Origin: Gammaproteobacteria bacterium | GTDB lineage: Bacteria; Pseudomonadota; Gammaproteobacteria; Xanthomonadales; Rhodanobacteraceae | DNA: 34,100 nt | Assembly: GCA_004295005.1 (NCBI GenBank) | Contig: SHNG01000058.1 | Location: forward strand, 1 to 34,100 | Reading direction: 5' to 3' | Part shown: piece by piece, positions 8,517 through 32,212 of the stretch | Numbering within the stretch: the stretch's first letter is position 1 | Layout of the letters: every line of letters starts with the position of its first letter | Program-made: the position numbers and the translations under genes | Notes under the pieces: model-generated | Told to the model about the DNA's origin: nothing | The model's database searches: none | Seen by the model: only the letters and a program-made list of their open reading frames with translations

Positions 8517-11030
8517 ATGCGCAGAGCCTTGCTCGCGTCCGTGTTCGCCATTGCCGCTTCGATTGCGGCAGCCGACGAATCATTGAGCCTCGAATGGGCG
8601 GTGGATGCGCACTACGCCGACGCGCAGGCTTTGGCTCGCGCGGCTGCCCATTTCCAGCATGTGCGCGTGGACCGCAAGCACCAGCGCCTGAGCGTGATCA
8701 CCGACGCGACCGGCATGGACCTGCTGCGCTCGGAAGGACTCGAAGTCAGCATCGACCATGTTGCCAGCGCGCAGTTGCACCAGGCCCTGGCACGGGCGGA
8801 TGCGGCTCGGCGCTCGGGCGTGGTCGAGTACGGATCCAGCGGTTATCCCGGAATCCCGGGCTATGCGTGCTACCGCACGGTTGAAGGCACCTACCAGACC
8901 ATGGATGACCTGGTGGTCGCACATCCGGGCATCGTCGAGATCGACGCCATCGGTCCAAGCTGGAAGAAAACGCAGAACGCTTCGCAAGGCTACGAGATGC
9001 GTGCGCTGCGAATCACCAATCTGGCCACGGCCGCGACCGATCCCGACCGTCCCAAGCTGGTCGCGTTCAGCTCCATTCACGCGCGCGAGTACGCACCAGC
9101 CGAGTTGATGACGCGTTTCGCCGAGTGGCTGGTCAATGGCTATGGCATCGATCCGGAAGCCACCTGGCTGGTCGACCACAATGATTTCCGCCTGATCCTG
9201 CAGGCCAACCCGGATGGACGCAAAAAGGCCGAAGACGGCATCCTTTGGCGCAAGAACATCGACAACATCGATGGTTCCTGCGCAAGCAGCAACTATGTCG
9301 GCATCGACCTCAACCGCAACTTCCCCTTCCACTGGAACATCACCAACGGCGGCGGGTCCAGTGGTGATACCTGTGATGAGACCTATCGCGGCCCGCTGCG
9401 CCAATCCGAGCCGGAAACCGAAAACCTGGTGGGCTACGTTGCGGGCACCTGCAATGACGCGGGAGAGTGCAGTGGAGGTGTCTTCGCTGATCGCCGCAGT
9501 GGCTCGATGGCGGGCACGGCTGGCAGCGACGATGGCAACGCCGCGCCGGACGACACGCGCGGCATCTTCTTCGACATGCACAGCTATTCGGATCTCGTGC
9601 TGTGGTCATGGGGCGATACCTCGACCGCGGCGCCCAATGGCACCCAACTGCGTACCCTGGGCCGACGCCTGGCCTGGTTCAACGACTACACCCCACAGCA
9701 GGCCGACGAGTTGTATGCCACCGACGGCACCACCGATGACACCATTTACGGTCTGCTCGGAGTCCCTGCCTATACCTTCGAGCTGGATGACGAATTCTTC
9801 CAGCAGTGTGCAAGTTTCGAAAACACCACCGTGCAGAAGAACATCGATGCCTTGCGCTATTCCGCGCGCAGCCTGCACGCGCCCTATCGCTTGCCTGCCG
9901 GGCCGGACACGTTGGCCGTGGACGCCAATGGTGCCGACCTGGTGGCGACCGGAACGCCCGTGGACATCACCGCGCAGCTCGACAGCAGCCGCTTCAACCA
10001 GAGCAACGGCACTGAAACCGTGCGCCCGATTGCAGGCGCCAATGCCTATGTCGACCAATTGCCATGGGATGCAGGTGCAACCCCGATTGCCATGAATGCG
10101 GCGGATGGCGCCTTCAATTCAAACAGCGAAACGGCCAATGCCTCCTTGTCGACCACGGGCTGGAGCAACGGACGCCACCGCGTGATGGTGCAGGGCGTTG
10201 CCGCGACGACCGCTCAGGCCGGCACGCCGAACGCGGTGTGGGTGGACGTGGCTGGCGCCGGGGATATCGCAACGCTGGGCGGGCACGTCACTGCCCAGGG
10301 CAATGGCGCACCCGTTTCGGCAACGGTCACCGTGTCCAATGTCGGCACCGGCGAAATCCGCAGCGTTGACACCAATCCGGCCGACGGCGCCTATGCGCGC
10401 ACCATGCTGGCCGGCAGCGTTGCCGTGCACGTCAGTGCGCAGGGTTTTCTCGACGAAGACCTGCCCGCAGTGAATCTCGTCGGCGGTCAGACGACGGTAC
10501 GCGACTTCGCCATGATTCCACGCTGCACCCTGTTCGAAGACGACATCGAAGCCGGTGGCGCGGCCTGGGTCGCGCAGTCGCCGTGGTCGATTGTCGGCAA
10601 TGTCAGCGGCAACACCACGCAGGCCTGGAGCACGGGCACCTATGCCGACAACCTTCAGCGCAGCTTGACCAGCTCCGCGACGATCAGCGTGACCGGTTAC
10701 AGCGATTTCGAGGTTGCGTTCGACGACCGCTGCGACACCGAGAACGGCTATGACTTCGGCTATGCCGAGTTCAGCACGGACGGCGGCGGAAGCTGGTCGC
10801 GCGTGTATGCCTGTGACGGCCGGCCGAGCTGGGAATCGCATCGCATCGAGTTGCCTGCGGCCGTCAATGGGGCCAGTGGCCTGAAACTGCGATTCCTGTT
10901 CACCTCGGACTCCAGTGTGAATCGCCCCGGTTGGGCCATCGACAATGTGCGATTGACCGCAGGTGGCGAAGCCTGTCGAGCCCAGCAACAGAGCGATCTC
11001 ATCTTTGCCGACGGTTTCGACTTCGACTGA
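8517..11030 (+). CDS. secreted M14-family zinc carboxypeptidase with C-terminal accessory domains and FADGFD tail
   Basis: The protein has 837 residues from ATG 8517 (AGGGGA seven bases upstream). This start puts the signal peptide MRRALLASVFAIAASIAAAD at the N-terminus. The M14 domain spans about 105-460. Zinc ligands are His188 and Glu191 (HAREY) and His355 (DMHSYSDL). Asn266-Arg267 (LNRNF) fit substrate carboxylate binding and Glu422 (YTFELDDEF) fits the catalytic base. A Cys/Gly/Asp-rich insertion lies at about 305-345. Then come a possible carboxypeptidase-regulatory-like beta domain (about 580-665), and a domain at about 675-820 reminiscent of MAM/jelly-roll domains of secreted proteases (LFEDDIEAGGAAWV, PGWAIDNVRLT). 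The end is SDLIFADGFDFD, the tail discussed in the findings. It is predicted to be an exported metallocarboxypeptidase for extracellular or envelope peptides. Confidence 0.92.
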   Translation: MRRALLASVFAIAASIAAADESLSLEWAVDAHYADAQALARAAAHFQHVRVDRKHQRLSVITDATGMDLLRSEGLEVSIDHVASAQLHQALARADAARRSGVVEYGSSGYPGIPGYACYRTVEGTYQTMDDLVVAHPGIVEIDAIGPSWKKTQNASQGYEMRALRITNLATAATDPDRPKLVAFSSIHAREYAPAELMTRFAEWLVNGYGIDPEATWLVDHNDFRLILQANPDGRKKAEDGILWRKNIDNIDGSCASSNYVGIDLNRNFPFHWNITNGGGSSGDTCDETYRGPLRQSEPETENLVGYVAGTCNDAGECSGGVFADRRSGSMAGTAGSDDGNAAPDDTRGIFFDMHSYSDLVLWSWGDTSTAAPNGTQLRTLGRRLAWFNDYTPQQADELYATDGTTDDTIYGLLGVPAYTFELDDEFFQQCASFENTTVQKNIDALRYSARSLHAPYRLPAGPDTLAVDANGADLVATGTPVDITAQLDSSRFNQSNGTETVRPIAGANAYVDQLPWDAGATPIAMNAADGAFNSNSETANASLSTTGWSNGRHRVMVQGVAATTAQAGTPNAVWVDVAGAGDIATLGGHVTAQGNGAPVSATVTVSNVGTGEIRSVDTNPADGAYARTMLAGSVAVHVSAQGFLDEDLPAVNLVGGQTTVRDFAMIPRCTLFEDDIEAGGAAWVAQSPWSIVGNVSGNTTQAWSTGTYADNLQRSLTSSATISVTGYSDFEVAFDDRCDTENGYDFGYAEFSTDGGGSWSRVYACDGRPSWESHRIELPAAVNGASGLKLRFLFTSDSSVNRPGWAIDNVRLTAGGEACRAQQQSDLIFADGFDFD

Positions 11031-11041
11031 ATTGCGTGACT

Positions 11042-11731
11042 TCAGGAAACCATCGGCCAGGAAAACCGCTGCAGCACGCGGACAAACTCCGCATCGAGCG
11101 GCGCCTCGATGCGCATGCGTTGACCGGTCAGCGGATGATCGAAGGCCAGTCGATGTGCATGCAACAACAGGCGATGCACATTGAAATGTTGCTTGAACAG
11201 CCGGTTGTGTTCGGTACGTCCGTGGCTGGTGTCGCCAATCAGCGGATGACGCAGGTGGGCGAAGTGTCGGCGGATCTGTCGATAGCGACCGGTTTCCGGA
11301 ATCACTTCCACCAGCGCGTAACGTTGTTGCGGGTAACGGTTGATGGCGATCGGCACCTCGGTCGTGGCCAGGCGCCGCCAGTGGGTGATCGCCGGCTTGC
11401 GCTCGCTGTTCTCGCGCACTCCGGGTAGCGCGTAGTCGATGCTGCCGAGTTCTTCCGGCCAGCCACGACACACGGCCAGATAAGTCTTCTCCACATCGCG
11501 CTGCATGAACTGGCGGCCGAGGGTGGCCGCCACTTCGGGACTGCGCCCGATCAGCAGCACGCCGCTGGTGGCGCGATCCAGTCGATGGATCAGATGCAGC
11601 GGACCCGCAACCTGCTCGCGCACGGCGTCGATCAGGTAAACCTCACCATCACTGACCAGACGACTTCGATGCACCGGCATTGCGGCCGGCTTGTCGACGA
11701 CGACAATGGCCTCGTCCTGGTACAGGATCAT
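11042..11731 (-). CDS. truC: tRNA pseudouridine synthase C (TruC)
   Basis: This 229-aa member of the RluA-type pseudouridine synthase family has the catalytic block HLIHRLDRATSGVLLIGRS, with the active Asp in HRLDR. TruC-like features include the start MILYQDEAIVVVDKPAAMPV, the compact size without an S4 domain, and IINDT-equivalent HPLIGDTSHGRTEHNRLF. TruC makes pseudouridine 65 in tRNA. ATG 11731 lies ten bases after the ubiB stop, so it is probably the last gene of the ubiJ-ubiB-truC operon. Its Shine-Dalgarno is weak, which fits translation by coupling. A RluA-family rRNA enzyme is the less likely alternative. It converges with the M14 gene at a distance of only 11 bases. Confidence 0.87.
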   Translation of the reverse strand: MILYQDEAIVVVDKPAAMPVHRSRLVSDGEVYLIDAVREQVAGPLHLIHRLDRATSGVLLIGRSPEVAATLGRQFMQRDVEKTYLAVCRGWPEELGSIDYALPGVRENSERKPAITHWRRLATTEVPIAINRYPQQRYALVEVIPETGRYRQIRRHFAHLRHPLIGDTSHGRTEHNRLFKQHFNVHRLLLHAHRLAFDHPLTGQRMRIEAPLDAEFVRVLQRFSWPMVS

Positions 11732-11741
11732 GCGTTCGAGA

Positions 11742-13397
11742 TCAGCGCAAGCGCAGGGCGGCAATGAATGACCACGCGGCACCCAGCGCCAGCACGATGG
11801 CCGTGCTGCTGAGTCCAGCCAATCGCGGGGCGTGGCTATCGAAGAGCTGCAGGGCAACGGCGCCAAGCGCCGCGACCGTGCCCAAGCCAAGGCAGACCGC
11901 GAGTCGGGCATTGCGCTGGCTGCCATCGGCGAGCGTGCGCAGGTCTTGCGAGGCAATGCGAACCTCCAACTCGCCATTGGCAACCTGTTGCAGGTAGCGA
12001 TGCATCAATTGCGGCATTTCCGGCGCGGCGGTCAGCCATTCCGGCACACGCTTGCGCAAGCGTTTGAACATCGCGCGTGGGCCGCGCCGCTGGCGCCAGA
12101 TTTTCTCCAGCACCGGTTTGGCCACGGCCCAGATGTCGATCTGCGGATGCAACAGGCGACCGACGCCTTCGATGTTGAGCAGGGTTTTCTGCAACAGGAT
12201 CAACTGCGGTTGCAGGGTCAGCTCGTGACGACGCGCCACCTGGAACAGCTTGATCACCACTTCGGCCAGCGAGATCTCGCTCAGGGGTCGTGTGAAATAC
12301 GGTTCGCACACCGCACGGATTGCGGACTCGAGCTCGTCCATGCGCGTGCGCCTGGGCACCCAGCCGGCCTCCACGTGCAGTTCGGCAATGCGCTGGTAGT
12401 CCTGGCGGAACAAGGCGAGAAAATTTTCCGCGAGCCAATACTGATCGCGCTCGGGCAGGGTGCCCATGATGCCGAAGTCCAGCGCAATGAAACGCGGGTT
12501 GTCCACCTGCGCCGCATCCACCCAGATGTTGCCGGCGTGCGCATCGGCATGAAAGAAGTTGTCACGGAAAACCTGGGTGTAGAACAACTGCACGCCTTTC
12601 TCCGCCAGGCGCACGCGATCGATACCGGCAGCGTCGAGCGCGGCAAGATCGTCTACCGGGATGCCGTGCACGCGCGCCAGGGTGAGTACCTCGGCGGTCG
12701 TATGCGACCAGACCACTTCCGGAACCATGAGGTCGTCGGAATCGCGGAAATTGCGCCGCAACAAGCTGGCGTTGGCGCCCTCGCGTTGCAGGTCGAGCTC
12801 GTTGCGCAGGGTCAGTTCCAGTTCCGCCACTACGTCCAGCGGACGGATCTTGTCGGCATTCGCATGCACGCGATTGACCAGCTCGCCGATGCCGCGCAGC
12901 AGGGCAATGTCGCGCTCGATGCGCGCACGGATATCCGGACGCAGCACCTTGACCACCACGGAGCGGCCATCGGCGAGGCTCGCCGCATGCACCTGCGCGA
13001 TCGATGCCGATGCCAAGGGTGTCTCATCGAAAGCGGCAAAGCTCTCGCCGACCGGCTTGCCGAGCGCGCGCTCGACCGCTTCGCGCGCCTGCGTTCCGGG
13101 AAACGGAGCAACCTTGTCCTGGAGTGCGGTGAGTGCGTCGGCGATGTCAGCGGGCAAGAGATCCCGCCGTGTCGACAGCAACTGGCCGAACTTGACGAAG
13201 ATTGGACCCAGCTCGGTGAGTGCAAGCACCAGCCGTTCGCCGCGTGGAAGCGTGTCGATCTGCGCACGCGCGCGCGGCACCACCCAGCGTGCCCAGCGCA
13301 ACAGGCGAAGTCGATGCGTGTCAACGACCACTTCATCCAGGCGGTAGCGCACCAGTACGACGGCGATGCGCAGCAGTGAAGCCACCGGCAAGCTCAT
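11742..13397 (-). CDS. ubiB: UbiB, ABC1-family atypical kinase/ATPase of ubiquinone biosynthesis
   Basis: This 551-aa protein shows the ABC1/UbiB signatures: the KxGQ motif in [16 protein letters not shown] (Lys69), an Ala-rich loop [13 protein letters not shown] (127-139) replacing the usual kinase glycine loop, Lys150 in VVVKVLRP, the catalytic block HADAHAGN and the metal-binding DFG. Two C-terminal hydrophobic helices (about 500-548) anchor it to the inner membrane. The size matches E. coli UbiB. Family members are ATPases that help the UbiI/G/E/J/K assembly handle lipid ubiquinone precursors. The start overlaps ubiJ by four bases. Confidence 0.95.
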
Positions 13398-14053
13398 GCG
13401 CGTCCGGCCAGGTCGATGCGGCGAACGCGCGCCGCCAGCCGATCCGCGCGTTCACGCAGGGCATCGACGTCGTCGAAAAACTGCTCGAGCTCGGGTTTTG
13501 CCACCAGATCGCGACTTTCCTCGACCAGGTATTCGACGCTGTTGCGCAGCAGGCGCGAAGTCGATTTTCTGGCAGCGGCGAGCGCACCACGCAATACGCG
13601 CGCAAGCTGGAATCCGATCACGTCACCAAAGACACGCGCAAAGGCTTCGTCGAAATCCGGCTCAAAGCGCGAGGCGAGGCGCTCGATGCGTCGCGCCAGT
13701 TCGGCATCTCCGGAAATCTCGACCTGGCCCGGTGGCAATGCGGCATCGGCATCCCCACGCAGCCGCGCCGCCGCCATCGCCAGCAAACTGCCCGGAGTGG
13801 CGCTGACGCGAAGCTGGCTGTCGCCGGCAAACGCCGGGCCCACACGCAACTGCCCGCAGTCGACCACAATGCGCATGGCCAACCCGCTGCCCTTGAACGC
13901 AATCGTGATCGAGCGGCCATCCAATGCGCGCAAGGCATCGAGGGTTTCCGGGTCGAGACTCAACAAGCGGTTGAGATTGGCCTCCAGGCCGCGACCCAGA
14001 ACACCAAGGATCGGGTTGGGTGCGCGTTCGCTGGTCGCAGTGGATGGATTCAT
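13394..14053 (-). CDS. ubiJ: UbiJ, SCP2-domain ubiquinone biosynthesis accessory factor
   Basis: This 219-aa protein has an N-terminal SCP2-like lipid-binding domain (about 20-115) beginning [19 protein letters not shown] and a C-terminal helical half ([20 protein letters not shown]..., LFQ-like [13 protein letters not shown]). This matches UbiJ. UbiJ binds lipid ubiquinone intermediates and scaffolds the cytosolic Ubi complex. It is the first gene of the operon, and its stop overlaps the ubiB start (ATGA). ubiE, which often sits beside it in other bacteria, is absent here. The 102-bp gap to the divergent symporter gene should hold its promoter, but no boxes stand out. Confidence 0.9.
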
Positions 14054-14155
14054 GCGCGCATTCTATCCCGATGTGCAACGAGGATCGGTCTTGCCTTGAC
14101 TGGACTGCTTCCGCACCATTGCGGCGCCTGCACCCATCGCACCCTGGAGAATGAC

Positions 14156-15826
14156 ATGCCCAGCACCCGCGTGGCACAAGCCGGTACACGCGCAGGCACC
14201 GCGCTGACCCAGGGCCACGGAAAGGTGATTCTTGCCTCCAGCCTTGGCACGGTCTTCGAGTGGTACGACTTCTATCTCTACGGTTCGCTTGCGGCCATCA
14301 TTGCCGGACAGTTCTTCTCAGCGCTCAATCCCACCAGCGGATTCATCTTTGCGTTGCTGGCCTTTGCCGCGGGTTTCGCGGTGCGTCCATTCGGCGCCCT
14401 GGTGTTTGGACGCCTGGGTGACTTGATCGGGCGCAAGTACACCTTCCTCGTCACCATCGTGGTGATGGGATTGTCGACATTTCTGGTCGGCGTGCTGCCG
14501 GCCTACACCAGCATCGGCATCGCTGCGCCCATCATCCTCATCAGCTTGCGCCTGCTCCAGGGCCTCGCACTCGGGGGCGAGTACGGCGGTGCGGCGACCT
14601 ATGTGGCGGAACACGCACCGAACGGCAAGCGAGGTCTCTACACCAGTTTCATCCAGACCACGGCCACGCTGGGACTTTTCCTGTCCTTGCTGGTGATTCT
14701 CGGCGTGCGCACCTGGCTTGGTGCTGAGGCATTCGAGGAGTGGGGCTGGCGCATTCCCTTCCTGTTGTCGGCGATCCTGCTCGGCATCTCGGTGTGGATT
14801 CGCCTGCAGTTGAACGAATCGCCCCTGTTCCAGCAGATGAAGGCGGAAGGCAAGGCTTCGAAGGCTCCGATCAGCGAGAGCTTCTTTTCGAAGAACGGCA
14901 AGATCGTCCTGCTGGCCCTGTTCGGTGCCACTGCAGGCCAAGCCGTGGTCTGGTATGCGGGCCAGTTCTATGCCCTGTTTTTTCTGACCCAAACGCTCAA
15001 GGTCGACGCCACCTCCGCCAACCTGTTGATCGCCGCGGCGCTGGTGATCGGCACACCGTTCTTCATCGTGTTTGGCTGGCTCAGTGACAGGATCGGGCGC
15101 AAGTCCATCATCATGGCGGGTTGCCTGATCGCGGCGCTCACTTACTTTCCCATCTTCAAGGGCATTGCGCACTTTGCGAATCCAGCGCTGGAATCGGCCG
15201 CAACATCGAGTCCGGTGATGGTGAGCGCAGATCCGACAACCTGCTCATTCCAGTTCAACCCGGTCGGCACAACCCGCTTCACCAGCTCCTGCGATATCGC
15301 CAAGGCGGCACTCGCCAAGGGCGGCACGCCATACGCCAACGCCGCGGCTGCACCGGGCTCAATTGCGACCATCCGAGTTGGCAGCATCGAGATTGCCTCG
15401 TACGAAGGTGCCGCCCTAGGAGCACAAGAGGCGGCGACGCAAAGCGCGCGTTTCAATGGCGAACTGCAAGCTGCGCTTGCCGGTGGCGGCTATCCGCTGA
15501 AGGCAAATCCGGATGCGATCAACAAACCCATGCTGTTGGTGCTGCTGACTCTCCTGGTGATCTACGTGACCATGGTCTACGGTCCGATCGCGGCCTGGCT
15601 GGTGGAGTTGTTCCCCACCCGCATCCGCTATACCTCGATGTCCTTGCCCTATCACATCGGCAACGGCTGGTTTGGCGGTTTCCTGCCCACCACCGCCTTT
15701 GCAATGGTGGCCGCCACGGGCGACATCTACTACGGCCTCTGGTACCCGATCATCATTGCGCTGATGAGCTTCGTGATCGGCACGCTGTTCCTGCGCGATA
15801 CACGGGATGTGGATATCACACGCTGA
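14156..15826 (+). CDS. MFS metabolite:H+ symporter (MHS family) with enlarged periplasmic loop
   Basis: The protein has 556 residues from ATG 14156 (GGAGA seven bases upstream). It is a 12-helix MFS carrier of the MHS family (ProP, KgtP, ShiA relatives). Signatures are VFEWYDFYLYGSLAA in helix 1, GRLGDLIGRKYTF in the helix 2-3 loop, RLLQGLALGGEYGGA in helix 4 and WLSDRIGRKS in the second half. It would import a carboxylate or zwitterionic solute with protons across the inner membrane; the substrate is not readable. The loop after helix 9 is about 110 residues long (roughly 325-438) and holds two cysteines, whereas family members usually have a short loop there. The upstream in-frame extension runs antisense through ubiJ and is not real. 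Confidence 0.9.
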   Translation: MPSTRVAQAGTRAGTALTQGHGKVILASSLGTVFEWYDFYLYGSLAAIIAGQFFSALNPTSGFIFALLAFAAGFAVRPFGALVFGRLGDLIGRKYTFLVTIVVMGLSTFLVGVLPAYTSIGIAAPIILISLRLLQGLALGGEYGGAATYVAEHAPNGKRGLYTSFIQTTATLGLFLSLLVILGVRTWLGAEAFEEWGWRIPFLLSAILLGISVWIRLQLNESPLFQQMKAEGKASKAPISESFFSKNGKIVLLALFGATAGQAVVWYAGQFYALFFLTQTLKVDATSANLLIAAALVIGTPFFIVFGWLSDRIGRKSIIMAGCLIAALTYFPIFKGIAHFANPALESAATSSPVMVSADPTTCSFQFNPVGTTRFTSSCDIAKAALAKGGTPYANAAAAPGSIATIRVGSIEIASYEGAALGAQEAATQSARFNGELQAALAGGGYPLKANPDAINKPMLLVLLTLLVIYVTMVYGPIAAWLVELFPTRIRYTSMSLPYHIGNGWFGGFLPTTAFAMVAATGDIYYGLWYPIIIALMSFVIGTLFLRDTRDVDITR

Positions 15827-15852
15827 CAATCCGCGCCGGGACGGCGATATCT

Positions 15853-15884
15853 GCAGAACGCCACACTACGACGTGCGGTTCTGC
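15853..15884. terminator. possible bidirectional hairpin between the symporter and epimerase genes
   Basis: GCAGAAC at 15853-15859 pairs with GTTCTGC at 15878-15884, with a further CAC/GTG pairing inside. The hairpin sits at the convergent gene ends and overlaps the last codons of the epimerase gene. No U-tract follows on either strand, so intrinsic termination is uncertain. Confidence 0.3.
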
Positions 15885-16849: not shown

Positions 16850-16996
16850 CGCCAAAACCCTGTTCCAATGCCGCCATGTGGCGGCCCCCGGGCGGCAGTG
16901 TGCAGCAGTGAAGGTGGAAATTCGAGTGTGTGCGCCTGGCGCGGCGATCCGCCACGCCACCTGCGGCTCTCAACCGCCCCTGCTTTCGGCAACCGA

Positions 16997-17383
16997 TCAG
17001 TGTTCTTTCAACGGATAGGTTTGCACTTCATCCGTGGGTGCCTGGTCGCGACGTGTGCCCGTTGCGGGTCGGTTGCCGCAGACAAAGGCCGCCCAGTCCT
17101 GCGCGCCATCCTGCGGCTTGTTCACCGCCTTGATGGTATCGGCGCCCAGGCTGGCGGCCTGGTTGCGTGCCATCACTTCCAGTTCATCACCCACTTTCAG
17201 CCCGCTGCGGCGATAGGGTCCCACGTTGTCCAGCACGGAGACGCTGATCGAGCCAGCCGGACGACAATGGCTCACGTCGCCGGTCCAGGCCACCCGCACA
17301 TCGCGGCCGCCGGCATCGAGTTTGATGCCCCAACTGCAGGCGCCGAGTGCGAGGATTGCAAGAGCGAGGGTCACGAATCTCAT
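16997..17383 (-). CDS. DUF4156-type lipoprotein
   Basis: This 128-aa protein starts MRFVTLALAILALGACSW, a lipoprotein signal with lipobox LGAC, so it should be lipidated at Cys16 and anchored in a membrane. The rest fits the DUF4156 pattern: VSHCRPAGSISVSV, then ARNQAASLGADTIKAV, and a late cysteine in WAAFVCG that probably pairs with the first. The last ~20 residues are polar and variable. The function of the family is unknown. It lies 147 bases upstream of the epimerase gene on the same strand; co-transcription is possible but not shown. Confidence 0.8.
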   Translation of the reverse strand: MRFVTLALAILALGACSWGIKLDAGGRDVRVAWTGDVSHCRPAGSISVSVLDNVGPYRRSGLKVGDELEVMARNQAASLGADTIKAVNKPQDGAQDWAAFVCGNRPATGTRRDQAPTDEVQTYPLKEH

Positions 17384-17499
17384 GGGGTATTTCCGCGGCA
17401 GGAACTGGATTGCCGGCAGTGTGGAACAGTCAGGCTAAGGCAACGCTGAACATGCGGCCGGAAATTTGTCCGTCGCCACGCCGGTTTGCACACAATCCG

Positions 17500-17626
17500 C
17501 CTCTCCCGCGGGCGGGAGAGGCCAACGCGCAGCGGCGGGTGAGGGTGGCGTTTGGACTTGCTCGAAGCATTGCGCTTGGGATTTGCACCACCCTCACCCC
17601 AACCCTCTCCCGCCAGCGGGAGAGGG
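17500..17626 (-). repeat. 127-bp palindrome-ended intergenic element, copy 1
   Basis: The element starts with a CCTCTCCCGCGGGCGGGAGA palindrome and ends with an ACCCTCTCCCGCCAGCGGGA palindrome. Inside lie the inverted blocks GGGTGAGGGTGG and CCACCCTCACCC, so the whole folds as nested hairpins. Copies at 22499-22625 and 28820-28946 have exactly the same length in the opposite orientation. The core is non-coding. It lies in the 532-bp gap 17384-17915 between the lipoprotein and M16 genes, which holds no gene. Confidence 0.85.
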
Positions 17627-17730
17627 AATGCGAAACGTCACCTTCTCCCGGAGCTTTTGCGCTGTTTGCCCTGTCTCTTCCTGGAGTTTTGCGATGGATG
17701 CGCGTTGTGGGCCAATCCACCCCTTCTCCG

Positions 17731-17852
17731 CCTCTCCCGCGGGCGGGAGAGGCCGACGCGCAGCGGCGGGTGAGGGTGGCGTTTGGGCTTGCTCGAAGCA
17801 TTGCGCTTGGGATTTGCACCACCCTCACCCCAACCCTCTCCCGCCAGCGGGG
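17731..17852 (-). repeat. 127-bp element, copy 2, right end truncated
   Basis: This copy repeats copy 1 in the same orientation at a spacing of 231 bases and differs at very few internal positions. The final palindrome stops after CCGCCAGCGGGG and runs into unrelated sequence, so the last few bases are missing. The near identity of two adjacent copies suggests recent local duplication or gene conversion. Confidence 0.8.
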
Positions 17853-17915
17853 GCACGCCGTCAAGCGAAACGCTTTCACGCAGGGCGGATAAGCCAAGCA
17901 CATCCGCCGGTGCGC

Positions 17916-22431: not shown

Positions 22432-22440
22432 GGGTTGAAA

Positions 22441-23005
22441 GCCGGGAACGGGTTTGGGGCCGGGAATGGGGAATCGGGATTCGGGAATCGCTTTTTCTCC
22501 CTCTCCCGCAGGCGGGAGAGGGCCGGGGTGAGGGTGGTGCAAGACGCGCGTGCGAGGCTTTGAGCAAGGCCATATGCCACCCTCACCCGCCGCTGCGCGT
22601 CGGCCTCTCCCGCCCGCGGGAGAGGCGCAAGCAAAAGCATCGCATCCCATGCAACTGCCATTGTGCTCCCTCGCTTGTCTGCGTACCCATGAGGTATGAA
22701 GGCGAAGCGAAAAATATCGCATCCTGCATCGCCGCAGTTGTGCTCCCTCGCCCGCTGGCGTACCCGGAGGGCATAAAGGAGAGGGCTGGCGTGAGGGTGG
22801 TGCAAGACGCGCATGCGAGGCTTTGAGCAAGGCCATATGCCACCCTCACCCGCCGCTGCGCGTCGGCCTCTCCCGCCCGCGGGAGAGGCGCAAGCAAAAG
22901 CATCGCATCCCGCGTCGCCGCAGTTGTGCTCCCTCGCCCGCTGGCGGGAGAGGCGGAACAGCATCGCGTCCGGCGATCCAATCCCCGCTCCCCGCTCCCC
23001 GCTTC
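22441..23005. repeat. repeat cluster between the SNF2 helicase and membrane-protein genes
   Basis: The gap is wholly repetitive. Short GGGAATGGGGAATCGGGATT-type runs lie at 22461-22490. A full 127-bp element is at 22499-22625. A diverged left arm lies around 22672-22740. A second element with a disrupted left palindrome is at 22744-22888; about 20 extra bases split its stem loop. A solo palindrome follows at 22931-22953, and CCCCGCTCCCCGCTCCCCGC near 22984-23003. The block AAGCAAAAGCATCGCATCC recurs at the right edge of both elements. No coding sequence is supported here. Confidence 0.8.
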
Positions 23006-26000: not shown

Positions 26001-26347
26001 CGCGGATCCACAACCTGCGGTGGATGGGTTTCAAGTGACGGGCGCCCGCCCAATATTTTCAATGCAATCGCCGCAACGTGCTTGCATTCGCCCTGCAATG
26101 GGCAGGTGCAGCGTGTGTCGATGCGCGGCTTGCCGCCGTTGAGATCAATCAGGATGGCGGCGGAATAGGGTGTCGATTCGCGGCCCTGGATGGCGCCGAA
26201 CAGGGTGCCGGATTCATCGTCCGCCTCGTAGCGGATCTCGCGCACGCGCCCGTGGCGCAGGTAATCCGCACCCTTGGCCAGGGTTGCCTGGTCCAGCAGG
26301 CTGTTGACCCGGTGGGACAGCAGTTGGCGGAAAAGCGACTCTTCCAT
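23006..26347 (-). CDS. SWIM zinc-finger SNF2/Rad54-family DEAD/DEAH-like helicase
   Basis: The protein has 1113 residues from ATG 26347. A TTG 13 codons upstream is possible but less likely. The N-terminus has a SWIM zinc finger, CTCPLQGECKH (residues 80-90), typically used for DNA or protein binding. A long middle region (about 120-600) is of the type found in bacterial SNF2 proteins. The ATPase core starts around 635 with DDMGLGKT (motif I), followed by VLDESQMVKN (motif II), MTGTPLENHLGELW (motif III), and in the second RecA lobe GVGLNLTAADTVIHYDPWWN (motif V) and AHRIGQ (motif VI). All ATPase motifs are intact. These proteins translocate on double-stranded DNA in the cytoplasm. Its biological role is not evident, and no restriction or defence partner gene is adjacent. 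Confidence 0.94.
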   Translation of the reverse strand: MEESLFRQLLSHRVNSLLDQATLAKGADYLRHGRVREIRYEADDESGTLFGAIQGRESTPYSAAILIDLNGGKPRIDTRCTCPLQGECKHVAAIALKILGGRPSLETHPPQVVDPRSQGSAWKPWFESLEARSGSAQRTATVDPGVVFGILLRVGEGALPGLLAQPVWLKPNKRGGLGAPQAVGQFQFGIDPWQRLTPRQFEHVARLRMASPHFASSAWYPLNGERDEALLEILLEEYPCFVDKPAKGRTTLGAHRELTWGWRMSEEGNQKLVPQLAEGNGRTRLLRIAQIWYHDPATQTLGRVDGDARLIDAAMRAPPLRPEESEFVVEHWRNHSHLQGLPKPARAEAPQVHRVTPTPVLTLRAFPVLTYAQGTANRYQAGSVRLSFDYDGPRLPFAPAKPRERRLHEGRLLEVVRDRSAEISACEQLEALGLIDVELLPRMPMPGAGVFADGDFVLEPRRGQLLAAEQLFALAPRLREHGFRLETDAGFPFELLDEPEEWYAEVEESGNAWFDLSLGIDIGGERVDLLPILRRLLGDPGFPFTPRKGEDADAMWLVPIDERRRVALPLQRLRDLMAPLLEWLQELPERDAEQGVLRLRRSQATVLDEISSRGKLPWRGAENLREQLARLHDAREPASEPEGFKASLRGYQRDGLAWLGFLADANLGGVLADDMGLGKTVQVLAHLLSEKQRGRLYQPALVVAPTSLVSNWRSEAQRFAPALSVLVVHGPSRSGLHESIPHHDLVITTYPLLARDREALLAHEYALLVLDESQMVKNAKSQAARVVREISARRRLAMTGTPLENHLGELWAQFDAVEPGLLGSERHFARFFRTPIEKHHDGERRERLSRRIAPLLLRRRKEDVLADLPEKTIIPRNIDLDGAQRELYESLRLAQHERVLAEVRQRGLAQSGIIVIDALLKLRQVCCDPRLVKLEGARRVKHSAKLELLLDLLGSLVDEGRRVLVFSQFAEMLELISQALNARKLAWQMLTGQTPSTKRAELVARFQAGEVPIFLISLKAGGVGLNLTAADTVIHYDPWWNPAVEAQATDRAHRIGQDKPVFVYKLICSGTVEEKIQALQQRKADLAEAVLEGGSTQALRFDEDDLAELFAPL

Positions 26348-26471
26348 GCGGGTGCGCGCATCCGTTGAGCGGCATCGAACAGGCAATCGTGCCTGCCGGC
26401 GCCGGTTACGTCCAGCGTCGGCCCGCAGTGCTCATGGAAAAGCCGAGGGTACGCGTGCTGTGCCAGGAGCC

Positions 26472-27092
26472 TCAGCCGAGCATGGCTTCGGCCTGCGCGC
26501 TGAATTCGGCGACCTTGCCCGCATCGACGTGCTTGCGCAGTACGCGGCGGAATTCCGGCAGCATTTCGCGAAGGGCATCGCGGCTCGGGCACTTCTCGAT
26601 CTTCTGCGCAAACAGGAAGGAACGCAGACCCGCCTTGGCGATCAAGGTACGGCTCATGTATTCACGCGCCGCCTGCAGCATTGGATCGAAGCCCATGCTT
26701 GGCTTGGCTTCCACGGGCTGGGCAGCGGCTTCCGGCTTGGCCTTGGCTTTTGCCTCGGTCTTTGCCTCGGCTTTCGGCTTTGCGATGGGTTTGCTCGGCT
26801 GCGGCAGTTCAACTTCGATTTCTGCCACCACGGCAGCGGCAGCGGGAGTGGCGGCTACCGCCGGTTCCGCGGATCCGGCCTGTGGCACTTCGATCAGACC
26901 ATTGGCCAGGAGTTCGTCGAGTACCGAATCGATTTCGTTCATCGCGGCGAACTGCTGGCGGATGCTCGATACCGGCCGCTCGCCATTGATCGAGATCAGC
27001 ACCATGCGTTGGCGTGCGCCGATCTTGAGCCTGCGCTCATCGATTTCGAGACGGCCGGCCTGGGTCTTGACTGGAATGGCGCTTGGCAACAT
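26472..27092 (-). CDS. uncharacterised protein with Ala/Lys/Pro linker
   Basis: This 206-aa protein starts at ATG 27092 with GGGGA about eight bases upstream. It has three parts. Residues 1-70 form a compact domain (VKTQAGRLEIDERRLKIGAR, then RQQFAAMNEIDSVLDELLAN) whose helix-strand pattern could be winged-helix-like. Residues ~72-138 are a low-complexity linker rich in Ala, Lys, Glu and Pro. Residues ~139-206 are helical (LQAAREYMSRTLIAKAGLRS). There is no signal peptide. I do not recognise a named family. It is 124 bases upstream of the helicase gene on the same strand, so co-transcription is possible. Confidence 0.7.
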   Translation of the reverse strand: MLPSAIPVKTQAGRLEIDERRLKIGARQRMVLISINGERPVSSIRQQFAAMNEIDSVLDELLANGLIEVPQAGSAEPAVAATPAAAAVVAEIEVELPQPSKPIAKPKAEAKTEAKAKAKPEAAAQPVEAKPSMGFDPMLQAAREYMSRTLIAKAGLRSFLFAQKIEKCPSRDALREMLPEFRRVLRKHVDAGKVAEFSAQAEAMLG

Positions 27093-27426
27093 GACGTGAT
27101 CCCCGTGAACTCGGCCCCTATTCTCGTAAATGGCCGATCTGCTGGAAAGTGGATTGGCAGCCCATGACAATTTTCGGCACAGCCTGACCAGCAGGATTGC
27201 GCCCGCTTTCTGGACCCGCCCGATGGCGACGGGTATGGAAAGGATGTTGGAACCACCCGCTGCTGCAAGGCTCGCCAATGCGGTATCGGCGGCCATGCAA
27301 GCAGCGTTCACGGCGAAGTTTTGCACAAAGCGCGCCAAGGGGTCGGTTCGGGCGACCGTTGAAGGGCCTGTCCTGAGTACAGTCGAAAGGCTCGCCTTGA
27401 TCAGCGGAGGTCCGTGACTCGCGCGG
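27093..27426. other. intergenic stretch with a degenerate palindromic remnant
   Basis: No gene is supported in these 334 bases; reading frames across it lack ribosome sites and known patterns. Around 27355-27393 the sequence CCGTTGAAGGGCCTGTCCTG and AGTCGAAAGG resembles a worn copy of the TTCGACA...CTCA...GAACGG type of palindrome that is better preserved at 2018-2050. The promoter of the 206-aa gene should lie near 27100-27160. Confidence 0.35.
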
Positions 27427-27603
27427 TCAGAGCGGAATCCAGTCGGCCGACGGGTCGCGGGAGAGGCGCGCGTGCAGCGGCGCGGGCGCATCACTGCATG
27501 CCGAAGGCAGGGTGACCCACGCCTCGCCACCGAGCCATTCCGGGGTGGCGGACTCGGTTGTGCGCAGGGACAGCAGCTGGGCCAGGAAACCATCAATACT
27601 CAC
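27427..27603 (-). CDS. 58-aa small protein (GTG start)
   Basis: A GTG at 27603 preceded by AAAGGAG (spacing about 7) opens a 58-aa frame: VSIDGFLAQLLSLRTTESAT at the start, EWLGGEAWVTLPSACSD in the middle and DPSADWIPL at the end. The start overlaps the stop of the 101-aa ORF by four bases (GTGA). The strong ribosome site plus coupling supports a real gene, although it is short. There is no signal peptide or membrane helix and one cysteine. I do not recognise the family. Confidence 0.55.
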   Translation of the reverse strand: MSIDGFLAQLLSLRTTESATPEWLGGEAWVTLPSACSDAPAPLHARLSRDPSADWIPL

Positions 27604-27905
27604 GGGAATTCTCCTTTGCGAAGCGGCAGGCGGAATGGATCGGGCGTGCCTGCCGGATGGGGATCCCGCCCTTGGATCGCATGGTCACTCGAGCACAGCG
27701 CCAGCCGGGACGCGTCGTTGCCATCGTGGGCAATGCATGACGATGGGTGGCCGTCCCTGGCCTTTGCCTCGAGGAATCCCGCATCGCTTTCGGCACGCGC
27801 GCAGGCCATGAAGCCGAACAGCAGGGTCAATACCGCAAATCCCGTTCGCAGGGGCTCGAATCCGCGTTCCAGATCGGTGTTGCGCTCTTGCTGGATGGAT
27901 TTCAT
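27600..27905 (-). CDS. 101-aa small protein with one hydrophobic segment (probable export signal)
   Basis: ATG 27905 has GAGGAG about seven bases upstream. The polar first ~20 residues (MKSIQQERNTDLERGFEPLR) are followed by TGFAVLTLLFGFMACARA, which can serve as a late signal peptide or membrane anchor. The remaining ~62 residues are hydrophilic, with two cysteines (SSCIAHDG, ALCSSDH), and end PLRKGEFP. The stop overlaps the 58-aa gene. The pair diverges from the response regulator at 28074 over a 168-bp gap, so this system may control it. The function is unknown. Confidence 0.55.
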   Translation of the reverse strand: MKSIQQERNTDLERGFEPLRTGFAVLTLLFGFMACARAESDAGFLEAKARDGHPSSCIAHDGNDASRLALCSSDHAIQGRDPHPAGTPDPFRLPLRKGEFP

Positions 27906-28073
27906 GGCCTGCTCCTCGGACTGGCGGCCATTGCAGCCGATCAGCAAGCATCCGCAGGGGCGTGCGCGGGCAGGCCGCCGACGAGATGTGGCGGTTTGCA
28001 GGCAATCCGCGCGCCTGCATTGCATGGGTGTGTCGACGCTGCGTAATCTGGCGCTGGTTCAAGGAGCACCGTC

Positions 28074-28769
28074 ATGCCACGCAGCATCGCCATCGTCGAA
28101 GACGAGCCAATGATCCGAGCCAACTATGTCGAGGCGCTCACCCGCATCGGCTATGAAGTGCGTGGTTACGCACGTCGCAGCGAAGCCGAAACCGCATTCG
28201 CCCAGCGCATGCCGGAGCTGGTCATCATCGATGTCGGTCTGGGTGACGAGCCGGAAGGTGGCTTTGACCTGTGCCGCAACCTGCGCGCCAGGGCGGCCGG
28301 CTTGCCCATCATTTTCCTGACTGCGCGCGATTCGGACTTCGATGTGATCTCGGGCCTGCGCCTCGGTGCCGATGACTACCTGGCCAAGGATGTCTCCCTG
28401 CACCAGTTGGCGGCGCGCATCAGCGCACTGTTCCGGCGCATGGATGCACTGCGCCAGCCGGCAAAGATCGATTCCGTGCACGAACTCGGGCCGTTGCGCA
28501 TCGAATCCGAACGCATGCGGGTGATCTGGAACGGCGAGGAAGTTCCGCTGACGGTGACCGAGTTCTGGATGGTGCACACCCTGGCACGATTTCCAGGCCA
28601 TGTGAAAAGCCGCGAACAACTGATGCGCGATGCCCAGGTGGTGGTGGATGACGCCACCATCACCTCGCACATCAAGCGCATCCGCCGCAAATTCATTGCC
28701 ATCGACCCCGCCTTTGACGCCATCGACACCGTGCACGGCGCGGGGTATAGGTGGAAGAGCCGGGAATAG
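28074..28769 (+). CDS. pdsR: response regulator of the proteobacterial dedicated sortase system type
   Basis: This 231-aa OmpR-like regulator has the receiver domain (1-120) with acidic pocket EDEP (9-12), phospho-acceptor Asp53 (IIDVGLGDEPEGGFDLC), Thr in FLTARDSDFD and Lys105 (YLAKD). A winged-helix DNA-binding domain (about 135-230) contains LTVTEFWMVHTLARFPGHVK, TITSHIKRIRRKF and DTVHGAGYRWK. The wording of these blocks is what I recall for the regulator family found with proteobacterial sortases. That assignment is from memory and should be confirmed with the family model. ATG 28074 has AAGGAG seven bases upstream. Its partner kinase follows after a 396-bp gap filled by a repeat element. 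Likely targets include the divergent small-ORF pair and the BNR gene. Confidence 0.87.
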   Translation: MPRSIAIVEDEPMIRANYVEALTRIGYEVRGYARRSEAETAFAQRMPELVIIDVGLGDEPEGGFDLCRNLRARAAGLPIIFLTARDSDFDVISGLRLGADDYLAKDVSLHQLAARISALFRRMDALRQPAKIDSVHELGPLRIESERMRVIWNGEEVPLTVTEFWMVHTLARFPGHVKSREQLMRDAQVVVDDATITSHIKRIRRKFIAIDPAFDAIDTVHGAGYRWKSRE

Positions 28770-28819
28770 AGAATGGAAATTGGAGATCGGAAATTGGGGA
28801 TTCGGGGCGTTGCTTTTCT

Positions 28820-28946
28820 CCCTCTCCCGCTGGCGGGAGAGGGCTGGGGTGAGGGTGGGGCAGCACACAGGTGCAAGGCTTTTAGCAAGCCCAGATGCCA
28901 CCCTCACCCGTCGCTGCGCGCCGGCCTCTCCCGCCAGCGGGAGAGG
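28820..28946 (+). repeat. 127-bp element between the response regulator and histidine kinase genes
   Basis: This is a full-length copy: CCCTCTCCCGCTGGCGGGAG at the left, CTCTCCCGCCAGCGGGAGAG at the right, and GGTGAGGGTGG/CCACCCTCACC inside. It is flanked by GGAAATTGGGGATTCGG-type runs on the left (28772-28805) and their inverted counterpart CCCAATCCCCAATCCCCAAT on the right (about 29127-29150). The whole gap 28770-29165 is thus a composite repeat inserted between two genes that normally act together. No gene is present in it. Confidence 0.85.
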
Positions 28947-29165
28947 CAAAACCGCATTGCGTCCCGTATCTCGCATCCCGAGTCTCGCCGAACATCAAGG
29001 CACTGGGCCCAAAGGCCATGGATGACCTGCATGCGGGAATTGCAGGAGCGAACTCCCGCCTGCCTGCGCAGAGGCGACGGGGTTTGAGGTCGAGCCGCCG
29101 AATCACGAGTCCCTCGTACCGCTCTCCATTCCCAATCCCCAATCCCCAATCCCGGCTTCACGTCC

Positions 29166-31184
29166 ATGTCCCTGCGCCTGAAACTTCTGCTGGTTGCCTT
29201 GTCCACGTTGACCCTGCCCTGGGCCGGTTGGCAATTCGTGCGCCAGACCGAATCGGTGTTGCGCCAGGGACAGGAACAGACCCTGCTCGCTTCAGCCACA
29301 ACCCTGGCGCGGGCGCTGGAGGTGATGGGTGTCGAGGCACCCTCACGCGACGCCGCGTTGTATGTGCATCCCCTTGTGGGTCGCTTGAGCGTGGATGGCT
29401 ACGACAGCGATTGGCAGGCGATGCGACCGTTTGCACAAACCTTTGCCGTTTCCGGCAACGCGCAGAAACTCACGGTGATGCTGGCGGGCGATGATCAATG
29501 GTTGTACCTGTTTGCGCGCGTGCTCGACACCACGCGCCAGCGCGCCGATGCGCGCGATGCCGCCTCGGCACACAGTGACCACGTGGATCTTCGCTTGTTG
29601 CGCAATGGACAGGCACGCCAGTACCGCATCGCCAGTGCGGCACCGGGCCGCTTCGAGGCACCGACCATCGACGGTGATGCGCCGTTTCCGCAGCAACTCG
29701 TCGGAGCCTGGCAGGAAGACGGCTCCGGCTACAGCGTCGAATTGCGCCTGGCGCGCGCGGATGCACCCGATCACCTGAGTCTGGCCGTGCATGATTCGGC
29801 GCTGCCCCAAACCGGTGCGGCGCCTGTACTTGCGCTGCTCGGCTACGACGACAAACTGGCACACACGCTGCAACGACTCGTACCCCAGCACTCACGCGTG
29901 CGGTTGGTTTCGGCAGATGGCTGGCTGCTGGCGGTGGGCGGTGCGCTTGGCAGTCCCGGGAAGACTGTCGAGCGCAACGGCGGCTTCGCCGATTTCATCT
30001 ATCGCAATCTGCTTGCGCCCAAGCCAAGCCAGGCGCAAACCTCGGACGAGATCGATCCGCGCCTGCGCGATGCGGATCTTGCGCAGGTGCTGACAGGCAC
30101 GGCACAGACCGCGTGGCATGGCGATGTCCAGGGTGGCGTGCTGCTGCTGGCGGCGGTGCCGCTGCAGGGCGACGACGGCACTCGCGGTGCGCTGGTGTTG
30201 GAGCAATCCAATCCGATGTTGCCGAATCTGGCCAGTCAGGCGCTGTCGAGCCTGCTTGGCGCCAGTCTGCTCGCCCTCGCCGTCAGTGCCGGATTGCTCC
30301 TGCTGTTTGGCGGCTTGCTCAGTTGGCGCATTCGTCGGTTGCGCAATGCCACCGAGCGCGCCACACGCGCCGGCGGGAAATTGTCCGGCCCGCTGCCGCT
30401 GACCGCATCGACCGATGAGCTGGGCGATCTCGCGCGAAGTTTTGGACGTCTGTTTGATGAGGTGGGTGGCCACACAGAGTACTTGCGAACGCTGGCATCC
30501 AAACTCTCGCATGAACTGAATACGCCGCTGGCGATCGTGAAATCCTCGCTCGACAACCTCGACCACCAGCGCTTGCCCGCGGATGCGCAGCCTTACCTGG
30601 AACGTGCGCGTGATGGTGCTGATCGACTCGGCGGCATCGTGCGCGCGATGAGCGAGTCCAGCCGCGTCGAGCGCGCGATTGCCACGGCTGATGGAGAGGA
30701 TTTCGACTTGCGCGCGCTGGTGGCCGGATGTGCCGATGGATACCGCGGACTATTCAGCGGCGAGATGCACCTTTCACTTCCCGATTCGCCCGTGCCGTTT
30801 CATGGTTCTCCCGAGTTGCTGGCCCAGGCGCTCGATAAATTGTTCGACAATGCGCGCTCCTTTGCAGGCGAAGATGGCCGCATTGCGATCAACCTGCGCG
30901 AGCAGGGAGACGGACTTGTCTTGAGCATGTCCAACACCGGCCCGCTTCTGCCCGAAGGCATGCGCGAGCGCCTGTTCGATTCCCTGGTCAGCCTGCGCGA
31001 GCACAGCCAGCGCGCGGCTGGCGAAGCACCGCATCTGGGCCTCGGCCTCAGCGTGGTGCGCCTGGTGGCCGAACTGCATCACGGGAGCGCCAGCGCCGCG
31101 AACCTGGCCGATGGCAGTGGCGTGGTGTTTGATCTGCATCTCGTTGGCATGCCGCGCCGGCGTATTGGCAGGAGCGATTCCTGA
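29166..31184 (+). CDS. pdsS: sensor histidine kinase of the proteobacterial dedicated sortase system type
   Basis: This 672-aa membrane kinase has helix 1 at about 5-25, a periplasmic sensor at about 30-360, helix 2 at about 363-387 and a HAMP-like linker. The HisKA domain has phospho-acceptor His449 (KLSHELNTPLAIVKSSLDNL). The ATPase domain has the N box LDKLFDNARSF and G box HLGLGLSVVRLV. The sensor begins with VGRLSVDGYDSDWQAM, continues TVMLAGDDQWLYLFARVLD and SGYSVELRLA. This spacing recalls CBM9-like carbohydrate-binding folds. Length and layout fit the kinase family associated with proteobacterial sortases. The stop overlaps the start of the BNR gene by one base (TGATG). The ribosome site is weak. 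No sortase gene is in the window. Confidence 0.87.
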   Translation: MSLRLKLLLVALSTLTLPWAGWQFVRQTESVLRQGQEQTLLASATTLARALEVMGVEAPSRDAALYVHPLVGRLSVDGYDSDWQAMRPFAQTFAVSGNAQKLTVMLAGDDQWLYLFARVLDTTRQRADARDAASAHSDHVDLRLLRNGQARQYRIASAAPGRFEAPTIDGDAPFPQQLVGAWQEDGSGYSVELRLARADAPDHLSLAVHDSALPQTGAAPVLALLGYDDKLAHTLQRLVPQHSRVRLVSADGWLLAVGGALGSPGKTVERNGGFADFIYRNLLAPKPSQAQTSDEIDPRLRDADLAQVLTGTAQTAWHGDVQGGVLLLAAVPLQGDDGTRGALVLEQSNPMLPNLASQALSSLLGASLLALAVSAGLLLLFGGLLSWRIRRLRNATERATRAGGKLSGPLPLTASTDELGDLARSFGRLFDEVGGHTEYLRTLASKLSHELNTPLAIVKSSLDNLDHQRLPADAQPYLERARDGADRLGGIVRAMSESSRVERAIATADGEDFDLRALVAGCADGYRGLFSGEMHLSLPDSPVPFHGSPELLAQALDKLFDNARSFAGEDGRIAINLREQGDGLVLSMSNTGPLLPEGMRERLFDSLVSLREHSQRAAGEAPHLGLGLSVVRLVAELHHGSASAANLADGSGVVFDLHLVGMPRRRIGRSDS

Positions 31185-32212
31185 TGATTCGAAAGTTTGC
31201 ATGCGTCACCTTCCTTGTCGGGGTGATTTCATCCGACGCAACCGCTGCCGTGCAGCAAGTCACCTCGGGCAGCGATCTGGACTACCAGGCAGCGATACTT
31301 CGTGCGAGTAGCGACGGTGCCCGCATTGTTGTCTTCGAGCGCCTGGATGCGTCATTTTTCGGAAACCTCTGGCTGACGCGATCGACCGATGAAGGTCAAT
31401 CCTGGAGTACGCCCGCCCCGATCATCGCCACCGCAGCAAACGAGCGTCATCCTGCCCTGGTCGAAACGTCACCTGGCGCGTACACCCTGTTCTATCTGAA
31501 GGGTAGTGGTTCGAGTTCGAGCTACCGCTTGTGGCGTGCGACCAGCAGCGATGGCGCGAACTTCACGGAACAAGGCATGCTCGATCTCGGCTGGGCAAGC
31601 GGCGGGGAGGTCAACCCCCACGTGATCCGTCACGTCGACGGTACGCTGACCATGAGCTACCAGCGACTCTCCGGTGGTGTCCATGTTGCCGAATCAAATG
31701 ATGGCGGCGTGAGCTGGGACCAGCAAAAGACAGTGATCAATGCGGGCGGACAGTTGCCACGCATTGCCTTCCGCGAAAGTGATGGGCTTTATCTGGCCAG
31801 CTATCAGACCGGCAGTACGGCCTTGCAGATGTGGGTGAAGACGACAAGCAATCTTCGCGACTGGAGCGTTCCAGCCCAGGCTTTCGCGGCCAGCGGCAAC
31901 AACCACGATTCACTGCCGACGGTAATGCCGGACAATGCACTCGTGCTGTTCTGGATCCGTGAAGCGAACGGCCAGTTCGACATCGTCACACGCCGTTCCA
32001 CCGATGGCTTGAACTGGGGCAGTGACATCCCAGTCACCACCACAGTTGGAGAAAACGATGTCGAACCGCATCCGCTCATCGGCGATTCACCGGGGGTCGT
32101 CGAGCTCTACTGGGGCCGCGAAACCCCACTCGGCAGCAACGACTACGACATCGTTCGCGACGGTTCGGTGCTTATTCTGGATTTGATTCTTGCCGATGGG
32201 TTCGATCAGTAG
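31184..32212 (+). CDS. secreted Asp-box (BNR/sialidase-fold) propeller protein with ADGFD tail
   Basis: This 342-aa protein starts MIRKFACVTFLVGVISSDAT, a short signal peptide cleaved near Ala20-22. Asp-box motifs (S-x-D-x-G-x-x-W or close) occur at 67-74 (STDEGQSW), 121-127 (SSDGANF), 171-178 (SNDGGVSW) and 272-278 (STDGLNW), evenly spread as in a six-bladed sialidase-type propeller. The sialidase arginine triad and nucleophile Tyr are not evident, so a glycan-binding or structural role is as likely as hydrolysis. The C-terminus LDLILADGFDQ is the tail shared with the M14 peptidase. The ATG overlaps the kinase stop, so it belongs to the pdsS transcript and is probably the system's output or its sensed component. 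Confidence 0.82.
   Translation: MIRKFACVTFLVGVISSDATAAVQQVTSGSDLDYQAAILRASSDGARIVVFERLDASFFGNLWLTRSTDEGQSWSTPAPIIATAANERHPALVETSPGAYTLFYLKGSGSSSSYRLWRATSSDGANFTEQGMLDLGWASGGEVNPHVIRHVDGTLTMSYQRLSGGVHVAESNDGGVSWDQQKTVINAGGQLPRIAFRESDGLYLASYQTGSTALQMWVKTTSNLRDWSVPAQAFAASGNNHDSLPTVMPDNALVLFWIREANGQFDIVTRRSTDGLNWGSDIPVTTTVGENDVEPHPLIGDSPGVVELYWGRETPLGSNDYDIVRDGSVLILDLILADGFDQ

Follow-up and report, generated by a model that had tools for sequence, protein, structure and literature searches.

A stretch of 34,100 nucleotides from a gammaproteobacterium of the Rhodanobacteraceae (assembly GCA_004295005.1, contig SHNG01000058.1, positions 1 to 34,100; hereafter the window) raises the question of why an M14 zinc carboxypeptidase and a BNR repeat protein carry the same short C-terminal tail. 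Both endings, SDLIFADGFDFD and LDLILADGFDQ, were read directly, and no Pfam family is common to the two proteins, so that the preliminary description of the window was right in calling the tail shared and the bodies unrelated. That description took the tail for a short recognition tag of a secretion or sorting machine, a proposal now supported by the recurrence of the tail, its enrichment on exported proteins and its co-distribution with a transporter. On the sequence evidence the tag is real, and a probability of about 55% is given to the reading that it is a portable C-terminal recognition tag read by a second type II secretion system (T2SS), termed T2SS-A, for outer-membrane passage or display. 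Observed are the tag, its C-terminal position, its enrichment among exported proteins, the unrelated bodies, a co-distribution with the type-A secretin GspD that has exceptions, and a change of the tag over many genes of one genus. Cargo choice by the T2SS is an open question, which a tag tracking one T2SS subclass makes testable in culturable bacteria; a tag differing over the whole substrate set in one genus adds to that testability. If the reading is true, the tag would be the address label that the T2SS is thought to lack, and a motif scan would predict the secretome of a poorly studied order.

Recurrence of the tag in the host genome

The host genome (3.47 Mb in 197 contigs, 87% complete) was searched with DNA patterns, with the reversed pattern as control. 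The strict pattern for FADGF[DE] gave 20 matches against 0 in the control; all 20 were in frame and 19 lay no more than 14 residues from the stop. A loose pattern gave 74 matches against 13, and 42 of the 74 were in-frame C-terminal tags, a count from which L073 was excluded as spurious and L057, L100 and L098 were put aside as doubtful (handles with L, C, G, g and f denote loci, contigs, genomes, genera and families). The check for genome-wide recurrence at C-termini was thereby positive.

The tags follow the consensus D-x-[IL]-F-x-D-[GD]-F-[DE] and are succeeded by 0-6 residues, once by 14; the BNR tag is the sole one among the 42 with L replacing F at the first aromatic position. Outside any search pattern, D stands at -3 in 38 of 42 and I or L at -1 in all 42. 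The last 16 residues have a net charge of -1 to -7 in every one of the 42 tails, in keeping with the earlier statement that the tail has no hydrophobic helix or basic end. Furthermore, 19 distinct 18-mers were found among the 20 strict matches; since the codons vary synonymously, selection acts on the protein. Tandem tags at a single C-terminus were observed in L117 and L120, as in IFLDGFEGDVIFKNGYD.

Proteins carrying the tag

A Sec-like N-terminus was found in 35 of 36 complete tagged genes versus 91 of 191 untagged genes on the same stretches (p 2e-9), by a signal-peptide heuristic that is rough and, judging by the 48% background, loose. The sole tagged gene failing it, L086, has an N-terminus that looks signal-like by eye. 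The predicted enrichment among genes with signal-peptide-like N-termini was thus found. Thirty-nine tagged proteins scanned with Pfam belong to unrelated families (25 of 32 matched families inspected), which include the metallopeptidases M10, M12, M14 and M36, GH44, endonuclease I, beta-helix, FG-GAP, PKD and BNR. No beta-barrel family occurs among the 25, in agreement with the view that the tail is not a barrel C-terminus. In NCBIfam (25 of 36 matched families inspected), choice_anch_Q was matched by 7 of the 39 proteins, and M36 models named after rhombosortase, myxosortase and the type IX secretion system (T9SS) by 4, 3 and 1; by their names, these families carry other C-terminal sorting signals elsewhere. 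Some NCBIfam matches are partial and far under the curated cut-off, that of the window M14 protein reaching 18.9 of 1700 bits, and among the inspected families there was neither a model describing the tagged tail nor a T9SS tail family.

The window M14 protein has the Sec-like signal MRRALLASVFAIAASIAAADE and contains, by Pfam, a regulatory-like (CarboxypepD_reg) and a MAM-like domain, the MAM-like match lying below its cut-off. In its AlphaFold model (mean pLDDT 85.5), tail residues 833-837 fall below 50, likewise five other segments; low confidence there would be as expected of a flexible tail. Among M14 homologs of tag-positive genomes, 22 of 23 genes read have the tag or a close variant at their end (among them IFADGFHTD and NIFYDGFQ), with or without a preceding MAM-like domain and with three further matched places left out; the exception, L416 of G003, ends without it. 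Three homologs in G258 and G288 (56% identical) all end without the tag, although L430, one of the three, may have a frameshift close to its end and G288 counts as tag-negative only for the usual, glycine-containing form (G-form). Two homologs in genus g31 end LFEDRFEQ and IFDDRFEEPAG, and one in family f8 (G097) ends LFKSGFEN. Judged from these endings, the tag is portable, being kept by homologs of tag-positive genomes that differ in the preceding domain.

Distribution of the tag

Samples of 229 genomes from the class and 299 from the order were searched, and within the order a genome was called tag-positive at 10 matches. In the class outside the order, 226 genomes gave 0-11 matches each, with G357 and G493 at 11 and 10, equal to the threshold applied within the order. 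Of 30 such loci read, nine have the motif inside one recurring protein, presumably ProA; seven have it no more than 14 residues from the stop in open reading frames (ORFs) of 9 to 157 amino acids; and in L161 it stands 15 residues from the end of a 483-residue ORF, outside the D-x-I/L context. These background matches of the same DNA pattern, such as those inside the presumed ProA, could suggest that the tag is chance or a compositional artefact. That explanation is already refuted by the excess of the host matches over control under both patterns, by their in-frame C-terminal position, and by the D and I conserved beside the motif where no pattern searched.

A scan of named genomes returned at least 115 stretches, including Dokdonella, Marinicella, Tahibacter, Chiayiivirga, Pseudofulvimonas, Wenzhouxiangella and many Lysobacterales metagenome-assembled genomes (MAGs), together with some MAGs labelled Sedimenticola and Oceanospirillales. 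Four among the 115 listed were stubs below 60 amino acids, from Roseibium, Pyrinomonadaceae, Bacteroidetes and Melainabacteria. Essentially, the tag belongs to a single order, that of Dokdonella, Marinicella and Wenzhouxiangella. The tagged proteins L168, L215 and L255 lie in Sedimenticola-labelled MAGs, either by transfer out of the order or because the bins are mislabelled. Occurrence inside the order is patchy: 11 genomes of family f1 have 15-151 matches and the other 65 have 0-9, and in family f2 two genomes reach 68 and 51 matches against 0-5 in the remaining 76. In G060 and G019 (9 and 8 matches) five loci each were read and none was C-terminal, so the matches there are probably chance. 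Neither equal abundance in cytoplasmic proteins nor restriction to this one genome was found, the two outcomes that the preliminary description had set against its own proposal.

The acidic, aromatic and probably exposed tail is also something that a protease could read, as a periplasmic quality-control or degradation signal. This is very improbable, in that the 42 carriers are enzymes and surface-type families, and elsewhere in the class the tag does not rise above background, even though tail proteases of the periplasm occur widely.

Co-distribution with a second type II secretion system

T2SS-A consists of a GspC with a C-terminal PDZ domain, GspD, GspE and GspF. The host copies (contig C11) score, in bits against the NCBIfam cut-off, 547/351 for GspD, 681/630 for GspE, 467/424 for GspF and 106.2/101.6 for GspC. 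In 8 of 11 A loci read, gspC, gspD and gspE are adjacent, with a DEAD-type helicase alongside in 5 and gspF next in 3; the remaining A loci were only partly called by the gene finder. A PDZ match in GspC-A was found in 4 of 4 lineages tested, above the gathering score in three. The second host system, type B (contig C16), is an Xps-like operon whose N protein matched no Pfam family and resembles XpsN weakly. Four tagged genes lie within the same 20 kb as gspCDEF-A in L285 (G103), an arrangement that is not general.

In a first set of 77 genomes, picked as tag-high (38) or tag-low (39), GspD matches were found in all 77, and the T2SS in general was rejected as the reader for being too broad; only type A tracks the tag. 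Tag-high genomes have two secretins above cut-off, and type-A GspD, by the score cut applied here, was found in 38 of 38 tag-high versus 3 of 39 tag-low genomes, the three being members of g31 with another form of the tag. Over the 299 genomes, the G-form gave 75 with tag and A, 10 with the tag only, 41 with A only and 173 with neither; the corresponding counts were 11/0/2/63 in f1 and 2/0/0/76 in f2. In G123, which has tags, a contig breaks off within gspD and leaves a fragment, probably because of a gap in the assembly. A 57-row secretin tree separates A from B with support of 100/100; type A mostly follows the families, largely as would be seen under vertical descent. In the GspD-A tree the copy of tag-poor G257 groups with f2, and that of G230 is a long branch. 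The proposed look for a transporter that tracks the motif across genomes thus led to a second T2SS, with exceptions both ways.

An arginine form of the tag

Genomes with A only, as counted by the G-form, are mostly of genus g31, by inference Wenzhouxiangella. In choice-of-anchor proteins of g31 the C-termini read carry a tag with arginine in place of glycine (R-form): IFNDRFEQP, VFQDRFEQP and IFRDRFEEP. In the 13 g31 genomes whose completeness is at least 94%, an R/S-form search gave 3-95 matches (median 32); G139 of genus g70 had 46. Elsewhere the R/S form is mostly near background; it is raised in family f5 (32, 39 and 39 in G004, G016 and G034), in G003 (23), whose listed R/S-form codons are mostly serine ones, and in a few more genomes. 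The excess over control in the 31 genomes of g31 and g70 was 93 for the G-form and 864 for the R/S form, and in the 75 other A-positive genomes 2529 and 411. When both forms are counted, the 224 genomes with a completeness of at least 95% comprise 62 with tag and A, 9 with the tag only, 6 with A only and 147 with neither at the threshold of 10, or 62/6/6/150 at a threshold of 12; by genus (85 genera), 31 have both, 44 neither, 6 A only and 4 the tag only. The G-form occurs on two stretches of one Wenzhouxiangella-labelled MAG, and in the GspD-A tree, whose inner support is weak here, G-form lineages separate g70 from g31; the tag switch may therefore have occurred more than once. In L303 and L308 of g31, some choice-of-anchor proteins end in a hydrophobic helix and a basic cluster of exosortase-type appearance; two C-terminal systems therefore seem to coexist there.

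The same residue has changed in dozens of unrelated genes, as expected if a shared reader imposes the form of the tag. It could be supposed instead that the tail is a structural or assembly element, acting by beta-strand addition or by docking to a surface layer or to other tagged proteins with no dedicated reader, and the tandem copies of L117 and L120 are consistent with binding by avidity. This is improbable, given that the tagged bodies have unrelated folds, that the tail of the M14 model is of low confidence, and that a single residue differing over dozens of genes in one clade fits a partner and not local packing.

A C25 peptidase and the neighbours of tagged genes

A PorU-like C25 peptidase with the degenerate tag VNRNGFEQD is encoded at L279:5940-8714 (host contig C9), two genes from gspF-A; against the model of the T9SS sortase PorU it scores 239.5 of 420 bits, below the cut-off. 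Among the f1 genomes tested, one strong copy is present in each of 10 tag-positives and in none of 16 negatives. The peptidase has no match, however, in 13 of 38 tag-positive genomes, and it is therefore not the general reader.

Two families recur most often beside tagged genes, one of kinases with TPR repeats, at 10 loci, and one of ECF sigma factors, at 5, both identified by Pfam on one member each plus the window copy; the protein kinase with TPR repeats at 3340-5994 of the window is one of the copies. Both are possibly a shared regulatory layer. As partners of the tag, the neighbours were set aside, inspection by eye of the 45 families listed having revealed no transporter.

The chief competing explanation takes the tag for a sorting or processing signal at the C-terminus that some other periplasmic or outer-membrane protein (sortase-like, anchoring or a shuttle) would read, T2SS-A being only co-inherited or downstream. 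The tag indeed occupies the place of sorting signals in related families, three f8 genomes retain tags without GspD-A, and the C25 peptidase follows the tag in f1, its host copy lying two genes from gspF-A. The absence of the peptidase from 13 of the 38 positives speaks against it as the general reader, and no other candidate reader was found, in analyses that made no unbiased gene-content comparison and did not profile the exosortase, rhombosortase and sortase families. This explanation is considered unlikely, though it is the main rival.

Proposed mechanism and the evidence against it

In the favoured reading, with T2SS-A as the reader, tagged proteins would first be exported by Sec, and the flexible tail would then be recognised in the periplasm by T2SS-A, possibly through contact with the PDZ domain of GspC or the N-domains of GspD. 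The protein, already folded, would be moved through the outer membrane by T2SS-A and then be released or displayed on the surface, and the tail may later be removed or used for surface retention. More tentatively, the tag may be the first linear, transplantable T2SS signal, about 10 residues long and read on dozens of unrelated proteins by a dedicated PDZ-bearing T2SS, whose specificity would have shifted in Wenzhouxiangella with the whole substrate set following from G to R.

Several observations weigh against T2SS-A as the reader. The GspG-N partners of system A were not located, and the A loci read showed no recognisable pseudopilins G-K, GspL or GspM; only 2 of these 11 loci have tagged genes close to gspCDE-A. 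Three f8 genomes (G063, G097 and G171) have true C-terminal tags with type B as the only GspD above cut-off, and G288 of f2 has 16 R/S-form matches versus 1 in the control, counted by pattern only, and no type-A GspD; conversely, type-A GspD occurs with few or no tags in G257, G230, G064 and G082. Taken alone, f8, f9 and f10 each show no significant association of tag and A. The co-distribution in f1 and f2 may have arisen via a few shared ancestral losses, in which case any gene lost alongside would correlate; the correlation depends on few independent losses, and shared ancestry remains a confounder. The extra residues after the motif speak against classical PDZ binding of a free carboxylate. 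Finally, a comparison of R-form with G-form lineages gave no sign of a charge coupling between the tag and GspC or GspD, acidic gains among the residues that change with the R-form being as numerous in GspE, the cytoplasmic control.

Features of the window

The coordinates are collected in Table 1. The preliminary description had listed a third case, a remnant of a once exported protein. Its tagged ending stands; its status as a remnant and its former export signal are unproven, the ORF having no Pfam or NCBIfam match and a flat GC content by codon position (0.60/0.60/0.67, against 0.62/0.51/0.77 in the M14 gene). It is counted only as a possible remnant because of the missing family match and the weak coding signal. 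Dispersed intergenic repeats of about 110-160 nt, direct and inverted, were also observed at 17496-17851, 22498-22971 and 28819-28995, the best pairs being 86-98% alike.

Table 1. Tagged genes and tags in the window
Feature	Position	Strand	Evidence
M14 zinc carboxypeptidase, tagged C-terminus	8517..11030	+	Pfam PF00246, E 2.7e-42
C-terminal tag SDLIFADGFDFD of M14 protein	10992..11027	+	ending read directly; strict DNA pattern
BNR repeat protein, Sec-like signal MIRKFACVTFLVGVISSDATAA, tagged C-terminus	31184..32212	+	Pfam PF13088 (BNR_2), E 3.7e-9
C-terminal tag LDLILADGFDQ of BNR protein	32177..32209	+	ending read directly
ORF with tag at its end; possible gene remnant	1469..1900	-	weak codon-position signal
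C-terminal tag LDDSIFADDFDGP	1472..1510	-	loose DNA pattern; fits consensus

Comparison with known systems

A literature search gave no match to FADGFE, FADGFD, IFADGF, LFADGF or six further strings, and no description of the tag was present among the literature matches listed. As a short C-terminal tag on many unrelated exported proteins, it resembles GlyGly-CTERM/rhombosortase, PEP-CTERM, LPXTG and MYXO-CTERM. These signals combine a motif with a transmembrane helix and a basic C-terminus, whereas the tag described here has neither helix nor basic end. The GlyGly-CTERM/rhombosortase class is also alike in its patchy occurrence over genomes, its many-to-one relation with a presumed reader and its overlapping substrate families; a dedicated reader jointly present or absent with the tag would be expected of such a class, and T2SS-A tracks the present tag strongly but imperfectly. 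Haft and Varghese (PMC3237569) found no evidence of rhombosortase marking a T2SS subclass, whereas here a T2SS subclass is what tracks the tag.

The T9SS with PorU likewise uses a C-terminal signal on Sec-exported proteins, and f1 has a PorU-like C25 peptidase. T9SS cargo, however, has a folded C-terminal domain of tens of residues in place of a tag of about 10, and a PorU-type C25 peptidase would be expected in every genome using such a system, which is not the case here.

Closest to the favoured reading are the substrates of the T2SS itself. Two recent papers state that no linear universal T2SS signal is known (PMC12369372) and that no conserved one has been identified (PMC11981180). In Vibrio, secretion of VesB requires the PDZ domain of EpsC (PMC12369372), and XpsC has a helix where other systems have the PDZ domain (PMC11981180). 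The pairs of VesB Ig-fold with EpsC PDZ and of PelI Fn3 with OutC PDZ share with the present case the Sec-exported proteins and the PDZ-bearing GspC. The known recognition is structural, whereas the candidate here is a linear, portable tag.

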